From the NCBI GenBank assembly GCA_015068495.1, contig SVKL01000003.1, positions 1 to 64,000 of the forward strand: DNA of 64,000 nucleotides, given 5' to 3'. Positions 17,853-39,841 of the stretch are shown piece after piece (position 1 is the first letter of the stretch; every line of letters begins with the position of its first letter). A program made the translations under genes and the position numbers. The notes beneath the pieces were generated by a model that was not told where the DNA came from, searched no databases, and saw only the letters and a program-made list of their open reading frames with translations. Origin of the DNA: Oscillospiraceae bacterium. GTDB taxonomy: Bacteria; Bacillota; Clostridia; Oscillospirales; Oscillospiraceae.

Positions 17853-19097
17853 TTACTTGCTCGTGGTTAATTTTTCACGAGGTTTGGTTTTGTCTCGCAG
17901 AATTTTCGGCTGTTTTCCTTCTATAGCCTCCGGTGTAATCACTACTTTTCGAATCGAAAGGTCCGAGGGGATTACGTACATAATTTTGGTCATAGTCTCT
18001 TCCATTATTGCACGCAGACCACGGGCACCAATCTGACGTTCCACAGCTTTTTCAGCCACTGCCTCCAAGGCCTTTTCCTGAAACTCCAGCGCTACGTGAT
18101 CCATAGCAAGAAGCGCCTCATACTGTTTTGTCAAGGCGTTTTTCGGCTCTGTTAAAATCCGAATCAGGTCCTCTTTCTTCAGATTCTGCAAGCTGGTAAC
18201 CACAGGCAGACGGCCTACCAATTCAGGGATTAGACCAAATTTGATTAAATCGTGGGGCTGAACCTGTGAAAACAGTTTGCCCACATCTCTGTTTTTCTTG
18301 CTCTCTACCGGCGCATCGAAACCGATAGCAGATTTATCCGTTCTGGATTCAATAATTTTCTCCAATCCATCAAAAGCGCCGCCGCAAATAAAGAGAATCT
18401 TAGAGGTGTCCACAGGTATGGTTTCTTGCTGGGGATGCTTTCTGCCACCTTGTGGAGGAACGTTGGCGACGGTTCCTTCAAGAATCTTCAAAAGCGCTTG
18501 CTGAACACCTTCACCGGAAACATCTCTGGTGATGGATGTGTTTTCACTTTTCCGCGTGATCTTATCCACCTCATCGATGTAGATAATACCACGCTCTGCC
18601 CGCTCCAAATCAAAGTCGGCAGCCTGCAAAAGCCGTACGAGGATATTCTCCACATCGTCGCCCACATAGCCGGCTTCCGTCAAAGTTGTGGCGTCGGCAA
18701 TGGCAAAGGGCACATCCAGAATTTTGGCTAGGGTTTGCGCAAACAGAGTTTTGCCGGAGCCGGTTGGTCCAATCAAAAGAATGTTGCTCTTTTGAAGCTC
18801 AACATCTGTCTCACCGGATAAATAGATGCGCTTGTAGTGATTATAGACGGCAACGGACAGTGCGATTTTTGCATCTTCCTGACCGACAATATAGCCGTCC
18901 ATATAGGTTTTCATTTCTGCGGGTGTGGGGAGCCGTTCCGGCATATCAGAGGTGTATTCATCCTCTTTCAGGAGATCGCAGCAGGTTTGCACGCAGTCAC
19001 TGCAGATATATACACCGGGTCCGGCAATCAGCCGTGCCTGCGATTCCTGTTTGCCGCAGAAGGAACAGCAAATCGGCTGCTCATCTGTCTTTGTCAT
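17853..19097 (-). CDS. clpX: ATP-dependent Clp protease ATP-binding subunit ClpX
   Basis: ClpX is the AAA+ unfoldase of ClpXP, 414 residues. The N-terminal zinc-binding domain has CSFCGKQ and CSDCVQTC (four Cys, about residues 10-36). Walker A is [12 protein letters not shown] near 110-121, Walker [11 protein letters not shown] near 171-180, and the pore and sensor motifs follow ([17 protein letters not shown]). It lies 21 bp after clpP on the same strand, so the two subunits are made together, and lon follows. Confidence 0.97.
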
Positions 19098-19118: not shown

Positions 19119-19700
19119 TTAGTGACGCTCAAGGACTCTGTCAATCAAACCAAAATCCTTTGCTTCCTGTGAGGTCATAAAATTATCGCGCTCGCAGGCT
19201 TCGGTAACCTCTTCGACGGATTTGCCGGTATTTTCTGCCATAATCCGGTTCATCCGTGCCTTAATGGTTTCCAGTCGCTTCATATGGATTGCCATATCCG
19301 TAATCTGACCCTGCGTGCCTGCAGAAGGCTGATGAATCATAATTTCGGAATTGGGCAAAGCCATCCGCTTACCCTTAGCACCGGCAGACAGCAGAAATGC
19401 GCCCATAGATGCAGCCATACCAACACAAATGGTAGCAACATCGCATTTAATGTACTGCATTGTGTCATAGATTGCCATACCTGCGGTAACGCTTCCGCCG
19501 GGGCTGTTGATATAAAACTGGATGTCCTTATCAGGGTCCTGCGCTTCCAGATACAGCAGCTGTGCTACGATCAAGCTGGCAGTTGTATCATTGACCTCTT
19601 CAGACAAAAACACAATTCTGTCATTCAGCAAGCGAGAGAAAATGTCATAGCTGCGCTCTCCCCTGCTGGTTTGTTCTACTACATAGGGTACTAAACTCAT
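19119..19700 (-). CDS. clpP: ATP-dependent Clp protease proteolytic subunit ClpP
   Basis: ClpP is the serine peptidase chamber of ClpXP, 193 residues from [19 protein letters not shown]. An ATG two codons earlier lies within 1-3 nt of AAGGAG, while the ATG at 19700 has 8-nt spacing and gives the conserved N-terminus. Longer in-frame starts run over the Shine-Dalgarno. The catalytic Ser is in [11 protein letters not shown] and the His in MIHQPSAG, with the Asp further on in the C-terminal half. The order tig-clpP-clpX-lon is the normal one. Confidence 0.97.
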
Positions 19701-19751
19701 GGTCATGTCTCCTTTCAGGGCTTGAAACATTCTAACCACTTATACGGGTAC

Positions 19752-21158
19752 TTATTCCTCGGTTTTCTCCTCGGTCTTTTCCTCAGCCTTTTCTTCTACC
19801 TTTTCATCGCTAGCTTCGTCAGCCTTCTTAGCAGCGGTCTTCTTTGTTGTGGTCTTCTTGGCTGCGGGCTTCTTTGCTGCCTTAGGCTTAGTAGCAACAG
19901 CATTTTCAACGATAAGCTTTACGGCCTTACGGGTTTCAAGGCTGGACTTCAGCTCTTCGGCGGGAACCATACCCTTGATCTTGTCAAGCTCCATCTCGTA
20001 CTGCTTTGCCATTGCTTCGTATTCAGCATCAATTTCTTCGTCGGATACAGTGATGCCCTCAACTTCGATAATCTTTGCCAGTGTGACATTTACCTTTGCC
20101 TGCTTTTCAGCAGCGGGACGGAAAGCGTTACGCATAGTGGACAGATCGCCGCCCATCATCTTAGCATACTGCTCAACAGAGTAGCCGCTCATCTGCAGCT
20201 GGTAGCCAAAACGCTCCATCTGATTGTCCAGCTCCAAATCTACCAGAGATTCGGGCATATCAACAGTTGTGTTTTCAGCAGCTTTGTCAACACAGGCCTG
20301 CTCGAAGGCATCATCAATTTGCTTCTGCGCCTTCTCCATAGCCTTTGCGCGAATGTCAGCCTTCAAAGCCTCCAAGGTATCGAACTCAGAAACGTCCTTT
20401 GCAAACTCGTCGTCCAATGCAGGAACATTAGTAACAGAAAGCTTATTGAGCTTTACGTGGAATACCACAGCCTTGCCGGCCAGATCTGCCTGATAATCCT
20501 CGGGGAAAGTGATGTCAATGTCCTTTTCCTCGCCTACATTCATACCAACGATCTGCTCCTCAAAGCCGGGAACAAAGGAGCCGGAGCCAAGCTTCAGGTC
20601 AAAGTTATCGCCCTTACCGCCCTTGAATGCAACACCGTTGTCAAAGCCTTCAAAGTCGATGTTAGCGGTATCGCCCATCTCAGCTGCCCGCTCAACAGTT
20701 TCGGTAGAGGCAACGTTTTGTGCCATCTGATCCAGTTCGGCCTGCACCTGCTCGTCGGTGACGGTGGCAGCAGCCTTTTCAACCTTCAGACCCTTGTACT
20801 CGCCCAGAGTAACCTCAGGGTAAACATCAGTGGTCATAGTGATGGTAACAATACCGTCATCGTTAATGTCCATATCGGTCAGGCTGGGACGGCCAACAGC
20901 CTTCACATCCTGCTTAATAACAGCGTACTCATAAACCTCGGGGAAAATCTCTTCCAGACCGTCTTCGTAGAAAACGTGAGCGCCATACATAGACTCGATC
21001 ATCTTACGGGGTGCTTTACCCTTACGGAAGCCGGGAATCATAATATTCTTGCGAGCCTTCATATAGGCCTTCTGAACGCCGGATTCCATCAGTTCCTTAT
21101 CGATTTCCACCACTAAGGTTACCTTGTTGCCGCTTCTTTCGTTGCTCTTAATGTTCAT
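19752..21158 (-). CDS. tig: trigger factor (ribosome-associated chaperone and PPIase)
   Basis: Trigger factor binds the ribosome exit tunnel and folds nascent chains. It has an N-terminal ribosome-binding domain with the signature GFRKGKAPRKMIE (residues 44-56), an FKBP-type PPIase domain (about 155-245) and a C-terminal helical arm domain to about 415. The last roughly 50 residues are unusual: a Lys/Ala/Thr stretch (KKPAAKKTTTKKTAAKK) followed by a Glu/Lys tail of EEK(T/A)EE repeats, absent from standard trigger factors. A good sigma-A promoter lies upstream at 21225-21253, and clpP follows after 52 bp. Confidence 0.95.
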   Translation of the reverse strand: MNIKSNERSGNKVTLVVEIDKELMESGVQKAYMKARKNIMIPGFRKGKAPRKMIESMYGAHVFYEDGLEEIFPEVYEYAVIKQDVKAVGRPSLTDMDINDDGIVTITMTTDVYPEVTLGEYKGLKVEKAAATVTDEQVQAELDQMAQNVASTETVERAAEMGDTANIDFEGFDNGVAFKGGKGDNFDLKLGSGSFVPGFEEQIVGMNVGEEKDIDITFPEDYQADLAGKAVVFHVKLNKLSVTNVPALDDEFAKDVSEFDTLEALKADIRAKAMEKAQKQIDDAFEQACVDKAAENTTVDMPESLVDLELDNQMERFGYQLQMSGYSVEQYAKMMGGDLSTMRNAFRPAAEKQAKVNVTLAKIIEVEGITVSDEEIDAEYEAMAKQYEMELDKIKGMVPAEELKSSLETRKAVKLIVENAVATKPKAAKKPAAKKTTTKKTAAKKADEASDEKVEEKAEEKTEEKTEE

Positions 21159-21273: not shown

Positions 21274-21960
21274 TTAAAAAATCCGATGAGGGATGAAATT
21301 CAGATAATCAGATGAAACGAGCTTGTAATCGATACCGTCCCACTGCCCTTCCATTGCCAGGCCGTGGCTCGGGCCGTGAAGATGCCCGTAGTAGCACCGG
21401 CGGACATCATACCGATTTAACAATTCCAAAATTTCATCACAGGTGTATCCTTTATACTTAGGCGGGTAGTGCAGAAACACCAATTTTGGCAAATCACCTG
21501 CGGATTTTAATGAGGCTTCCAAGCGAATCAGTTCCCGTTTGAATACCTTCTCATCGTGTTCCGCACTGCGTTCTTCCTCAAAGAACCACCCACGGGTGCC
21601 ACAAATCGCGTAGCCGTCGTATTCGTAGTGGTTATTATTCAGAATATACTGCTGAGAAAAACCGTTTTCTTCGCAAAATTTGTAGAATTTACTTGCGGTG
21701 CTCCACCAATAGTCGTGGTTGCCCTTCAGGATAATTTTACGGCCGGGAATTTCGTTTATCCAAGCAAAATCCATTTTTGCCGCATCCATAGACAGCGCCC
21801 AAGACAAATCACCAAGCAATACGGTTGTGTCGTCCGGGGTGATACAGGATACTCCCTCTTTTAACTTCTCCATATACCCGACCCAAGCGCCGCCAAATAC
21901 ATCCATCGGCTTGGCTTCGCCCAAACACAGGTGCAGATCTCCAATTGCATACAGTGCCAT
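21274..21960 (-). CDS. metallophosphoesterase
   Basis: This calcineurin-like phosphoesterase has 228 residues and is presumably cytoplasmic. The metal-binding motifs are in order: GDLHL near residues 7-11, GDLSW near 50-54, GNHDYWW near 79-85 and GHLHGPSH near 192-199, with H164 (FLHYPP) between. The substrate is not predictable; related proteins act on phosphodiesters in nucleotides or envelope lipids. It begins 4 bp after the threonine-synthase-like gene, so the two are co-transcribed. No terminator is seen before the tig promoter. Confidence 0.85.
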   Translation of the reverse strand: MALYAIGDLHLCLGEAKPMDVFGGAWVGYMEKLKEGVSCITPDDTTVLLGDLSWALSMDAAKMDFAWINEIPGRKIILKGNHDYWWSTASKFYKFCEENGFSQQYILNNNHYEYDGYAICGTRGWFFEEERSAEHDEKVFKRELIRLEASLKSAGDLPKLVFLHYPPKYKGYTCDEILELLNRYDVRRCYYGHLHGPSHGLAMEGQWDGIDYKLVSSDYLNFIPHRIF

Positions 21961-21964
21961 TCGG

Positions 21965-22888
21965 TCACTCCTTTATTCGCAGCGGATGTTGTTTGGCAAT
22001 CAAAAGGGTGTTTTTGTTATTTCCTGTATTTGCACGGTAATCCTGCAGAGCGCCGTAGGACAAAGCAGTTTTAGCATCCATTGTATAACGGTTTGTGTTG
22101 TACATACTGGATGTTACCGTATCCACACGATTGGCGCTGACAACAGCAACAAACATACTGCTGCTTAGCAGCTCGGTTTGTTCTTCAGTAAGGTGGCAGA
22201 CAGCTTTGTTATTTGCTGCATCCAAATACTGCAAAACGGCCAGCCTGCCGAGGGACTTATAAAGGAACGTCTCTAAATAATGAGGCTGTGAGGCGCCTGC
22301 TGAAAAATCCCCCTTGTTGACTAAGTCCCATAGAGCGCTTTTTTCATCACAAGCGCAAACTGTAAGGCCAACAGGAAGTCCCATTTCTTTGGCAAAGAGA
22401 ACTGCTGTCATCTCGCTAAGGTCATCAGCAGCGACAGCAACATCAAAGCTGCTGCGTGTGCAGCCGACTGCGCTGTAGACACCAAATAACAGTGCAATCT
22501 CCATTGCAATTCGCGACCAGCCAACCGGAACGCAATTTTTATTCGCAGTTAAATCATAAAGACGCTTGCAGACAGACTGCCAATCTCCCAGAGGATTATG
22601 CCACATTTCCGCAATCGTAACCTTCTGTCCTAATGTAATCTCAGCGACAGAATTTGTTCCCACAGCGTTGCGGATATCCATACCGTTTAGTCGCAGACCG
22701 AAAAAAAGGTTTAATACCTGCGCAACGGTATCCTCGAAGGATTGGTTCAGAATATCTGACAGTTCTGCGGAAGTAAATACCGGCAGATGAAACGGTACAT
22801 AAATACCCCCATCCGGCGCATACTCTTCGTAAAGTGCACGGTGCGCTGTATAGGTATCAATTGCATTTCTTGTGGTTGTATAGAGCAT
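21965..22888 (-). CDS. degenerate threonine synthase-like protein lacking the PLP lysine
   Basis: The 307 residues align by eye with threonine synthase (ThrC, normally 450-500). The N-terminus has the ThrC arrangement ending APDGGIYVP (24-32). AEMWHNPLGDWQS (94-105) corresponds to the ELFHGPTLAFKD block, with Gln104 where the PLP-binding Lys should be. It is followed 18 residues later by VPVGWSRIAMEI, matching the VNSINWARI block, so the intervening region with SGDTG is missing. AADDLSEMTAVLFAKEMGLP (153-172) replaces PTGNFG...AKKMGLP. I infer a catalytically dead descendant kept for another role. The frame is intact with a normal ribosome binding site region, which argues against a decaying pseudogene. 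Confidence 0.7.
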   Translation of the reverse strand: MLYTTTRNAIDTYTAHRALYEEYAPDGGIYVPFHLPVFTSAELSDILNQSFEDTVAQVLNLFFGLRLNGMDIRNAVGTNSVAEITLGQKVTIAEMWHNPLGDWQSVCKRLYDLTANKNCVPVGWSRIAMEIALLFGVYSAVGCTRSSFDVAVAADDLSEMTAVLFAKEMGLPVGLTVCACDEKSALWDLVNKGDFSAGASQPHYLETFLYKSLGRLAVLQYLDAANNKAVCHLTEEQTELLSSSMFVAVVSANRVDTVTSSMYNTNRYTMDAKTALSYGALQDYRANTGNNKNTLLIAKQHPLRIKE

Positions 22889-22930
22889 CTTTCTCTCACT
22901 CCAAATATATTTTTCTATGCAGGTAAATGC

Positions 22931-23296
22931 TTAGTAAAACGCTTCCTCTATGTGGTGAATTTCGGGCTTTCGGGTGTCTGTTCCCTCCGGCGCGTAAATT
23001 TCAATCACGTCAAACCGAGGCTGTAACTCAGTGGGGTTTTGTGACAGATATACCTCAGCAGTTGTGCGAATCCGATTTTGCTTGCGTTGATCCACAAATT
23101 CCATTGCATCGGCAAACTTGCTGTTTTTTCGCAGCTTAACCTCAACAAAAACAAGGTGTGTTTTATCGGCAACAATCAAATCTATCTCACCAAAACGGCA
23201 ACGGTATCCGCTTGCCAAAAGCTTGTATTTCTTTTTTTGCAGATAGGCAGCTGCCACGGATTCTCCCCAAGCGCCTACAATATTATTTCGTCCCAT
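22931..23296 (-). CDS. YraN family (UPF0102) endonuclease-fold protein
   Basis: YraN proteins are small restriction-endonuclease-like fold proteins of about 120 residues and unsettled function, usually next to rnhB as here. This one has 121 residues with GAWGESVAAAYLQKKKYKLLA, then the PD-(D/E)xK-type core GEIDLIVADKTHLVFVEVKLR (Asp40, Glu52 and Lys54 by eye). The 5' end overlaps rnhB by 14 nt. The threonine-synthase-like gene follows 42 bp further on. Confidence 0.9.
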   Translation of the reverse strand: MGRNNIVGAWGESVAAAYLQKKKYKLLASGYRCRFGEIDLIVADKTHLVFVEVKLRKNSKFADAMEFVDQRKQNRIRTTAEVYLSQNPTELQPRFDVIEIYAPEGTDTRKPEIHHIEEAFY

Positions 23297-23891
23297 AAAG
23301 CTTTTTTAAGAAAGTCAGGCGATGGATTGGGCAAGGTCCGTGCTCTGCTAACGCGGCATAGTGGGCCTTGGTGCCGTAGCCCTTATGTACATCAAAGGCA
23401 TATTCCGGATAATCCTTTGCCATTTCCAGCATATAATCGTCACGGGTTACCTTTGCCAAAACGGATGCAGCTGCGATGCTGGCGCTGCGTCCGTCACCGC
23501 CCACAACTGTCTCAAGTGGCAAACCGAAATCCTTTGCCCGATTTCCGTCAATCAGCGCAAAGTCGGGCTTTTCCTCCAGCTTACAAATCGCCCGTTCCAT
23601 TGCCAAATAGGTAGCCTGCAAGATATTAACTTCATCAATTTCTTTATGATCTGCAAAAGCAATACCGTAAGCAATGGCTTTTTCACAGATAATCGGAAAC
23701 AATTCTCTGCGCTTTTTGTCGGAAAGCTTTTTGCTGTCATTGAGTCCGGGGATTTCAATATCCATCGGTAAGATAACGGCAGCTGCGCAAACAGGTCCTG
23801 CCAACGGGCCGCGGCCTGCCTCGTCCACGCCGCAAATGGCGGTGTAACCCGCTTGTGCATACTTGTGTTCAAACTCCCACATATCTGTCAT
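23283..23891 (-). CDS. rnhB: ribonuclease HII
   Basis: RNase HII removes RNA, including single ribonucleotides, from RNA-DNA hybrids. The 202-residue protein shows GVDEAGRGPLAGPVCAAAV near residues 20-38 with the first two acidic catalytic residues. NDSKKLSDKKR follows, then the later Asp in ALIDGNRAKDF, and VTRDDYM. It overlaps rbgA by 4 nt and yraN by 14 nt. The order lepB-rbgA-rnhB-yraN is common in Firmicutes. Confidence 0.96.
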   Translation of the reverse strand: MTDMWEFEHKYAQAGYTAICGVDEAGRGPLAGPVCAAAVILPMDIEIPGLNDSKKLSDKKRRELFPIICEKAIAYGIAFADHKEIDEVNILQATYLAMERAICKLEEKPDFALIDGNRAKDFGLPLETVVGGDGRSASIAAASVLAKVTRDDYMLEMAKDYPEYAFDVHKGYGTKAHYAALAEHGPCPIHRLTFLKKLYGTK

Positions 23892-39600: not shown

Positions 39601-39841
39601 AACAAAAAACGTCCCAAGCCAAAGGCTCAGGACGAAAAAATTTCCGTGGTACCACCTGAATTTCCGCTTTCACGGACACTCAACAGCTATAACGGGCACA
39701 CCCGTACTCCCCTACTAAACTTCAAGGAGTCAGCTCCGGGACGACAATCTGCCATAGCTGTGTATGTTCACACCCACCACATACTCTCTTTAACAGCAAT
39801 TATGGCCGAAACTTCCCATCGACGCATTTTCTGATTAAATT
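39601..39841 (-). ncRNA. T-box leader (valine) of valS
   Basis: The leader between promoter and valS contains the conserved T-box stretch AGGTGGTACCACGG (39642-39657 region on the minus strand). The terminator hairpin follows (GTCC-GAGCC stem, 39610-39634) with a T-run at 39602-39609. A long stem I with AGAGAG lies upstream. A GUC in the specifier region (complement of GAC, 39740-39745) is a candidate valine codon, not proven. Uncharged tRNA-Val would allow read-through into valS and the two amidohydrolase genes. Confidence 0.88.

Follow-up and report, generated by a model that had tools for sequence, protein, structure and literature searches.

A shortened threonine synthase relative at a conserved locus

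The window analysed here, a stretch of 64,000 nucleotides from an Oscillospiraceae bacterium (GenBank assembly GCA_015068495.1, contig SVKL01000003.1, positions 1 to 64,000), belongs to the genus Candidatus Faecousia and encodes a shortened relative of threonine synthase (ThrC), here called ThrCL, between yraN and a metallophosphoesterase gene (Table 1). The reading frame begins with ATG and is unbroken over 307 residues, as the initial annotation had described it, and Pfam upholds the identities proposed there for the neighbouring metallophosphoesterase, yraN, and rnhB. ThrCL shares with bacterial/fungal-type ThrC (TIGR00260; PDB 4f4f, 1kl7, 8g1y, 1vb3) the Thr_synth_N domain, the large-domain fold, and the order of sequence blocks. 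Thr_synth_N (residues 3-75, 7e-12) was the only Pfam match of the window protein and was found in 50/50 family members, while PALP, the core domain binding pyridoxal 5'-phosphate (PLP), matched weakly in eight of them. All five PDB sequence matches of the window protein were threonine synthases, and its score of 21.7 bits against the ThrC equivalog TIGR00260 lies below the cut-off of 167.1.

Fold type II PLP enzymes have a two-domain make-up with the lysine located N-terminally, as a passage in PMC6411801 describes. At the site of the Schiff-base lysine (GPTxAFKD in ThrC), the window copy has Gln104, and none of the 50 aligned ThrCL rows has Lys, a loss first read from the window alone. We also ruled out that a lysine elsewhere in the protein has taken over PLP binding, since none of the positions conserved in 45 or more of the 50 rows is a lysine. 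The small domain with its SGDTG loop, the substrate loop motif of ThrC, is gone from all 50 rows, and the spacing between W96 and W124 is 28 to 31 residues, compared with about 127 in ThrC, in agreement with the shrunken region that the initial annotation had noted behind the lysine block. Since a helix (103-115), a seven-residue link, and a second helix (123-141) follow each other here in the predicted model, the missing stretch is the one that bears SGDTG and the small domain in ThrC. The PTGNFG loop, likewise reported as replaced, reads ADDL in the window and mostly (S/A/T)GDF in the family, the T-A-S-P site has mostly become E-x-S-P, and the C-terminus is shortened, 49 of the 50 orthologue frames being longer than the window copy. 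At 20 positions, moreover, conservation reaches 90% or more with a residue other than the commonest one of ThrC. Judged from these residues, ThrCL would not be a threonine synthase catalyst converting O-phosphohomoserine to threonine.

Alignment A1 joins the window to 23 same-genus loci out of the 28 from a first search (L005, L009, L026, L030, and L031 were left out). The partial locus L069, one of 51, was excluded from the 50-row counts, the substitution rate comparisons, and the profile scoring, and L041 (96% like L040) was also left out of alignment A3, which L060 enters two codons past its start.

Table 1. Positions of ThrCL, its altered sites, and neighbouring genes in the window
Feature	Position	Strand	Basis
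ThrCL, 307 aa, without PLP lysine and small domain; putative descendant of native thrC	21965..22888	-	sequence, profile, and fold comparisons
GGAG, Shine-Dalgarno-like, 10 nt 5' of the ThrCL ATG	22899..22902	-	read from sequence; putative
Codons 96-98 (W-H-N), loop following strand 90-94; in ThrC W-H-G, then PLP lysine block	22595..22603	-	alignment and model
Codon 104 (Gln), site of the ThrC PLP lysine	22577..22579	-	alignment
Codons 116-122, link between helices 103-115 and 123-141, site of the missing ThrC small domain	22523..22543	-	alignment and model
Codons 154-157, what remains of the PTGNFG phosphate loop; ADDL in window, mostly (S/A/T)GDF in family	22418..22429	-	alignment
Codons 181-184, loop following strand 173-180; DEKS in window, mostly N-E-N then S/N/G in family	22337..22348	-	alignment and model
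Codons 299-302, following strand 294-298; mostly E-x-S-P in family, T-A-S-P in ThrC	21983..21994	-	alignment and model
Metallophosphoesterase (Pfam Metallophos), gene after ThrCL, also neighbour at C-type thrC loci	21274..21960	-	Pfam and synteny
yraN (Pfam UPF0102), gene before ThrCL	22931..23296	-	Pfam and synteny
rnhB (Pfam RNase_HII), conserved synteny	23283..23891	-	Pfam and synteny
tig (trigger factor), conserved downstream synteny	19752..21158	-	Pfam and synteny
clpP, after tig, conserved downstream synteny	19119-19739	-	
clpX, after clpP, conserved downstream synteny	17853-19097	-	

Predicted fold and the former active-site face

The predicted model of the window protein is one confident globular fold comprising the N-terminal and large domains, and 303 of its 307 residues superpose on ThrC at 2.3 A. 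The ThrC descent proposed from block order alone thus agrees with the structural comparison, which did not lead to an unrelated fold. The strands of fold type II enzymes bear the active site at their C-terminal ends. The loops at these positions in ThrCL (after strands 90-94, 148-153, 173-180, and 294-298) are mostly conserved as WHN, (S/A/T)GDF, NEN, and ExSP, and differ from those of ThrC. Their conservation was 2.90 bits versus 2.49 for other loops, a value reached by 3.6% of 10,000 random loop sets.

Such a pocket might belong to a new PLP-free enzyme that uses conserved polar residues as catalytic groups. Most rows keep the polar residues of the strand-end loops (H97 in 36, N98 in 43, D156 in 37, E182 in 39, N183 in 42, and E299 in 36 of 50), D283 and R254 are present in 50/50, and E206 in 49/50. 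However, all six loop residues vary in some rows, the window copy itself has Lys at 183 and 299, and no metal or cofactor motif was recognised by eye. Furthermore, the 50 fold-comparison entries among the matches listed are PLP enzymes of the same fold, alone or in complexes. We therefore regard a new enzymatic activity as unlikely, though less so than the other alternatives discussed below.

Distribution and selection

A short orthologue was found in 28 of 36 same-genus genomes in the first search, in which the listed matches outside the genus came from frames of 492-533 residues, i.e. full-length ThrC. Extending the census, ThrCL was present in 102 of 136 Candidatus Faecousia genomes, the window included, and 96 of these matches had no internal stop. 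An order-wide sample of 245 genomes gave two matches at E <= 1e-52, both from the window's genus (1 of 126 genera), although this threshold would overlook a much more distant short form. Among the matches listed outside the genus in 300 genomes of the family, all frames were ThrC-sized (at least 491 residues), and a contig scan with the window ThrCL as the sole query returned no relative.

The ThrCL family is clearly under purifying selection. The median ratio of non-synonymous to synonymous substitution rates (dN/dS) was 0.118 (11 close pairs, 10 finite values), next to 0.112 for lepB, 0.090 for rnhB, 0.087 for yraN, 0.055 for the metallophosphoesterase, 0.048 for tig, 0.034 for ylqF, and 0.011 for clpP. 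These are Nei-Gojobori counts on stop-to-stop frames, which may take in some upstream codons.

The window lineage is the loose end of this constrained family, and maintenance is less clear there. The window protein is 34-47% identical to its nine nearest fetched relatives, while five neighbour genes reach 72-94%. Its dN/dS against these relatives was finite in four of nine pairs and ranged from 0.18 to 0.37, above the 0.06-0.11 of three pairs among the relatives. Of 90 strongly conserved positions it deviates at 26, more than any other of the 50 rows; G155D, F157L, P160M, and N183K lie at or near the loop sites. Together with the six matches (of 102) that contain one stop and the clean loss of the gene from two genomes, these features would be expected of a decaying pseudogene whose frame is open by chance. 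On the other hand, ThrCL is carried by most genomes of the genus, the family-wide dN/dS is low, the same deletion is shared by 50/50 rows, and the model is confidently globular. Decay is therefore already disfavoured for the family and is the least probable of the alternatives we considered, which supports the earlier view of a converted enzyme rather than a pseudogene.

Locus and origin

The usual order at the 51 named loci is rplS-lepB-ylqF-rnhB-yraN-(M19 dipeptidase)-ThrCL-metallophosphoesterase-tig-clpP-clpX. Upstream yraN and the downstream metallophosphoesterase were each found in 49 of 51, the other two lying at contig ends in each case; L066, L068, and L089 have no rplS. In the window, the interval 22889-22930 holds no M19 dipeptidase gene, which most relatives have between yraN and ThrCL. 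Individual loci show further variation: at L086, tig, clpP, and clpX had no match in the 6 kb past the metallophosphoesterase, although other loci of this length show them; L074 and L076 (about 8.7-10.7 kb) have about 2 kb extra between the metallophosphoesterase and tig, a size unmatched at other loci; and L063 and L065 (about 2.9-4.2 kb) carry tandem lepB-like (signal peptidase) frames where elsewhere there is one.

ThrCL occupies the same chromosomal place as a full-length thrC in related genera. In 20/20 genomes of the family with C-type thrC, picked among the best scorers and not at random, the gene follows yraN, with a dipeptidase gene between them in 12, and the metallophosphoesterase is its neighbour in 19, the twentieth lying at a contig end. 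The synteny of ThrCL orthologues, which the initial annotation had put forward as a check, is hence conserved and matches that of C-type thrC.

The window genome also has an ordinary full-length ThrC on another contig, with GPTSAFKD, ATSGDTG, and PTGNFG intact. This thrC is S-type (GPTSAFKD), adjoins hom and an aspartokinase-like gene, and groups with S-type enzymes from five further genera in a single clade (SH-aLRT 100). S-type thrC occurs in about a dozen genera (59% or more identity to the window thrC). We viewed its placement in four loci outside the genus (L204-L207), where an aspartokinase-like gene adjoins it, in three of them together with hom, and in two Faecousia loci (L178, L179). 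Of ten genomes picked from the best S-type matches outside the genus, nine yielded the metallophosphoesterase locus, and in none of these nine (G162, G110, G253, G071, G154, G183, G138, G345, and G329), which come from six S-type genera, was a thrC-like frame found next to it; in seven, yraN or the dipeptidase gene is directly joined to the metallophosphoesterase. Judged by these loci, S-type thrC appears to represent a family-level displacement of the biosynthetic gene in Oscillospiraceae.

The C-type profile outscores the S-type profile in 51/51 ThrCL sequences (medians 121.1 and 81.7 bits). This preference fits a native origin but is no proof and weak by itself, as the S-type clade has the longer stem, and in the trees ThrCL forms a long branch whose placement is uncertain. 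A recent duplication of the present Faecousia thrC is disfavoured by the C-type locus and the higher C-type scores. The simplest history we infer is that native thrC was displaced, its old copy deleted in other genera, and a shrunken copy kept in Faecousia.

Independence from threonine synthesis and from the dipeptidase

Among 40 genomes with a completeness of 90% or more and a contamination of 5% or less, both genes occur in 30, ThrCL alone in seven, and thrC alone in three. The seven had no TIGR00260 match at E <= 1e-10. In four of them (G035, G010, G423, and G002; 96-98% completeness), neither thrC nor a homoserine dehydrogenase gene was found, which makes them probable threonine auxotrophs within the genus. 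In the other three (G449, G026, and G450, with loci L175, L177, and L176), hom and an aspartokinase-like gene are present, but thrC was found neither beside them nor elsewhere in the genome, which sets these three apart from other members of the genus. On the thrC-only side, ThrCL is cleanly gone from its place in G425 and G440, whereas G433 gave no match to the metallophosphoesterase as well, and its assembly might therefore lack the locus. Single absences are weak in draft assemblies, and the weight rests on the pattern over several genomes.

Given its descent and its co-occurrence with thrC in 30 of the 40 genomes, ThrCL might serve the real ThrC as a subunit that regulates or stabilises it, or might be a sensor whose role is limited to threonine synthesis. 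The seven genomes that keep ThrCL without thrC, four of them also without a found homoserine dehydrogenase, speak against such a function, as does fungal ThrC, which is monomeric and without allosteric control according to a passage of PMC9081730. We consider this role improbable.

The gene directly upstream in relatives encodes a Peptidase_M19 dipeptidase (2.1e-75 in Pfam), and in 42 of 50 loci the end of its frame runs 13-32 nt into the start of ThrCL, so the two are apparently translationally coupled and could be partners. Yet the window genome and G015 keep ThrCL with only 28% (on another contig) and 35% identical proteins elsewhere, while G425 and G440 keep the dipeptidase and have lost ThrCL. 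The order itself matches that at thrC loci, where 12 of the 20 C-type genomes have the dipeptidase gene in front of thrC. An obligate partnership is slightly less probable still than a ThrC subunit. For the same reason, neighbouring genes were dropped as a hint to function, since their order is that of thrC loci.

The phyletic pattern shows that ThrCL needs neither ThrC, homoserine dehydrogenase, nor the neighbouring M19 dipeptidase, and because it is kept without them, it is unlikely to be a threonine enzyme, a ThrC subunit, or an obligate dipeptidase partner.

A putative pseudoenzyme with a new role

ThrCL has probably taken on a new role in Faecousia. We favour, with a probability of roughly 0.6, that native thrC was displaced by a second thrC and retained in this genus as a non-PLP pseudoenzyme, putatively a binding protein. 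In this scenario, the second thrC would have taken over while the native copy stayed in its old place, and removal of the small domain would have opened the former active-site face, where the strand-end loops carry the new set WHN, (S/A/T)GDF, NEN, and ExSP. The opened face might accommodate either a small ligand or a peptide belonging to a partner protein, and ThrCL could serve as sensor, carrier, or regulator in some process other than threonine synthesis. Binding is favoured because the strand-end loops are somewhat more conserved than other loops and their residues are unlike those of ThrC. Only tentatively would we go further and propose that native thrC gave rise to a genus-wide family of ligand-sensing or PLP-free catalytic proteins with a rebuilt pocket and a job outside threonine metabolism.

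Several points weigh against displacement followed by retention as a binding protein. The strand-end loops, which were picked by hand, exceed other loops in conservation only modestly; assigning them to the former active-site face relies on secondary structure and alignment. ThrCL is dispensable, as the clean losses in G425 and G440 demonstrate, some of its frames are interrupted, and among the eight genes compared its median dN is the highest. Moreover, the window copy may be relaxed or retuned, since it departs from the family at several loop or nearby positions.

Unlike ThrC, ThrCL has neither the PLP lysine nor the small domain, and its TGNFG and T-A-S-P sites and C-terminus are altered. 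Other ThrC descendants used differently are the vertebrate THNSL1 and THNSL2, which keep the full PLP fold and are not known to have a domain deletion of the ThrCL type. For the fold itself, a passage in PMC4961446 reports moonlighting by CysK, likewise a fold type II PLP enzyme in origin, which binds and modulates CdiA and CymR. CysK thus sets a precedent for this fold serving to bind proteins. The partners of CysK insert their C-terminal peptide into its active site. Like pseudoenzymes in general, ThrCL retains the fold but has lost the catalytic residue, which is absent from the 50 aligned rows (out of 102 carrier genomes), while purifying selection is maintained.

Among the papers listed in our searches of an open library, none dealt with the ThrCL family, and no fold type II PLP pseudoenzyme with the whole small domain lost turned up. 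Pseudoenzymes are known as a kind; a fold type II PLP enzyme kept genus-wide in its old place after a putative displacement, with both lysine and small domain gone, is apparently new, at least to us. ThrCL offers an unusually clean natural record of an enzyme turning into something else, with one locus in related genera holding the likely ancestral full-length thrC, having lost the old copy, or retaining the converted one. It appears from this that a fold type II PLP enzyme can lose its cofactor and partner domain while selection still preserves its large domain. ThrCL could also mislead annotation: if it were named threonine synthase, a genome such as G035, in which neither thrC nor homoserine dehydrogenase was found, would wrongly be credited with making threonine.

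RNA elements in the window

An Rfam scan of the window gave no match near the ThrCL gene. A T-box leader (122.7 bits) was detected at 39625-39831 on the minus strand.
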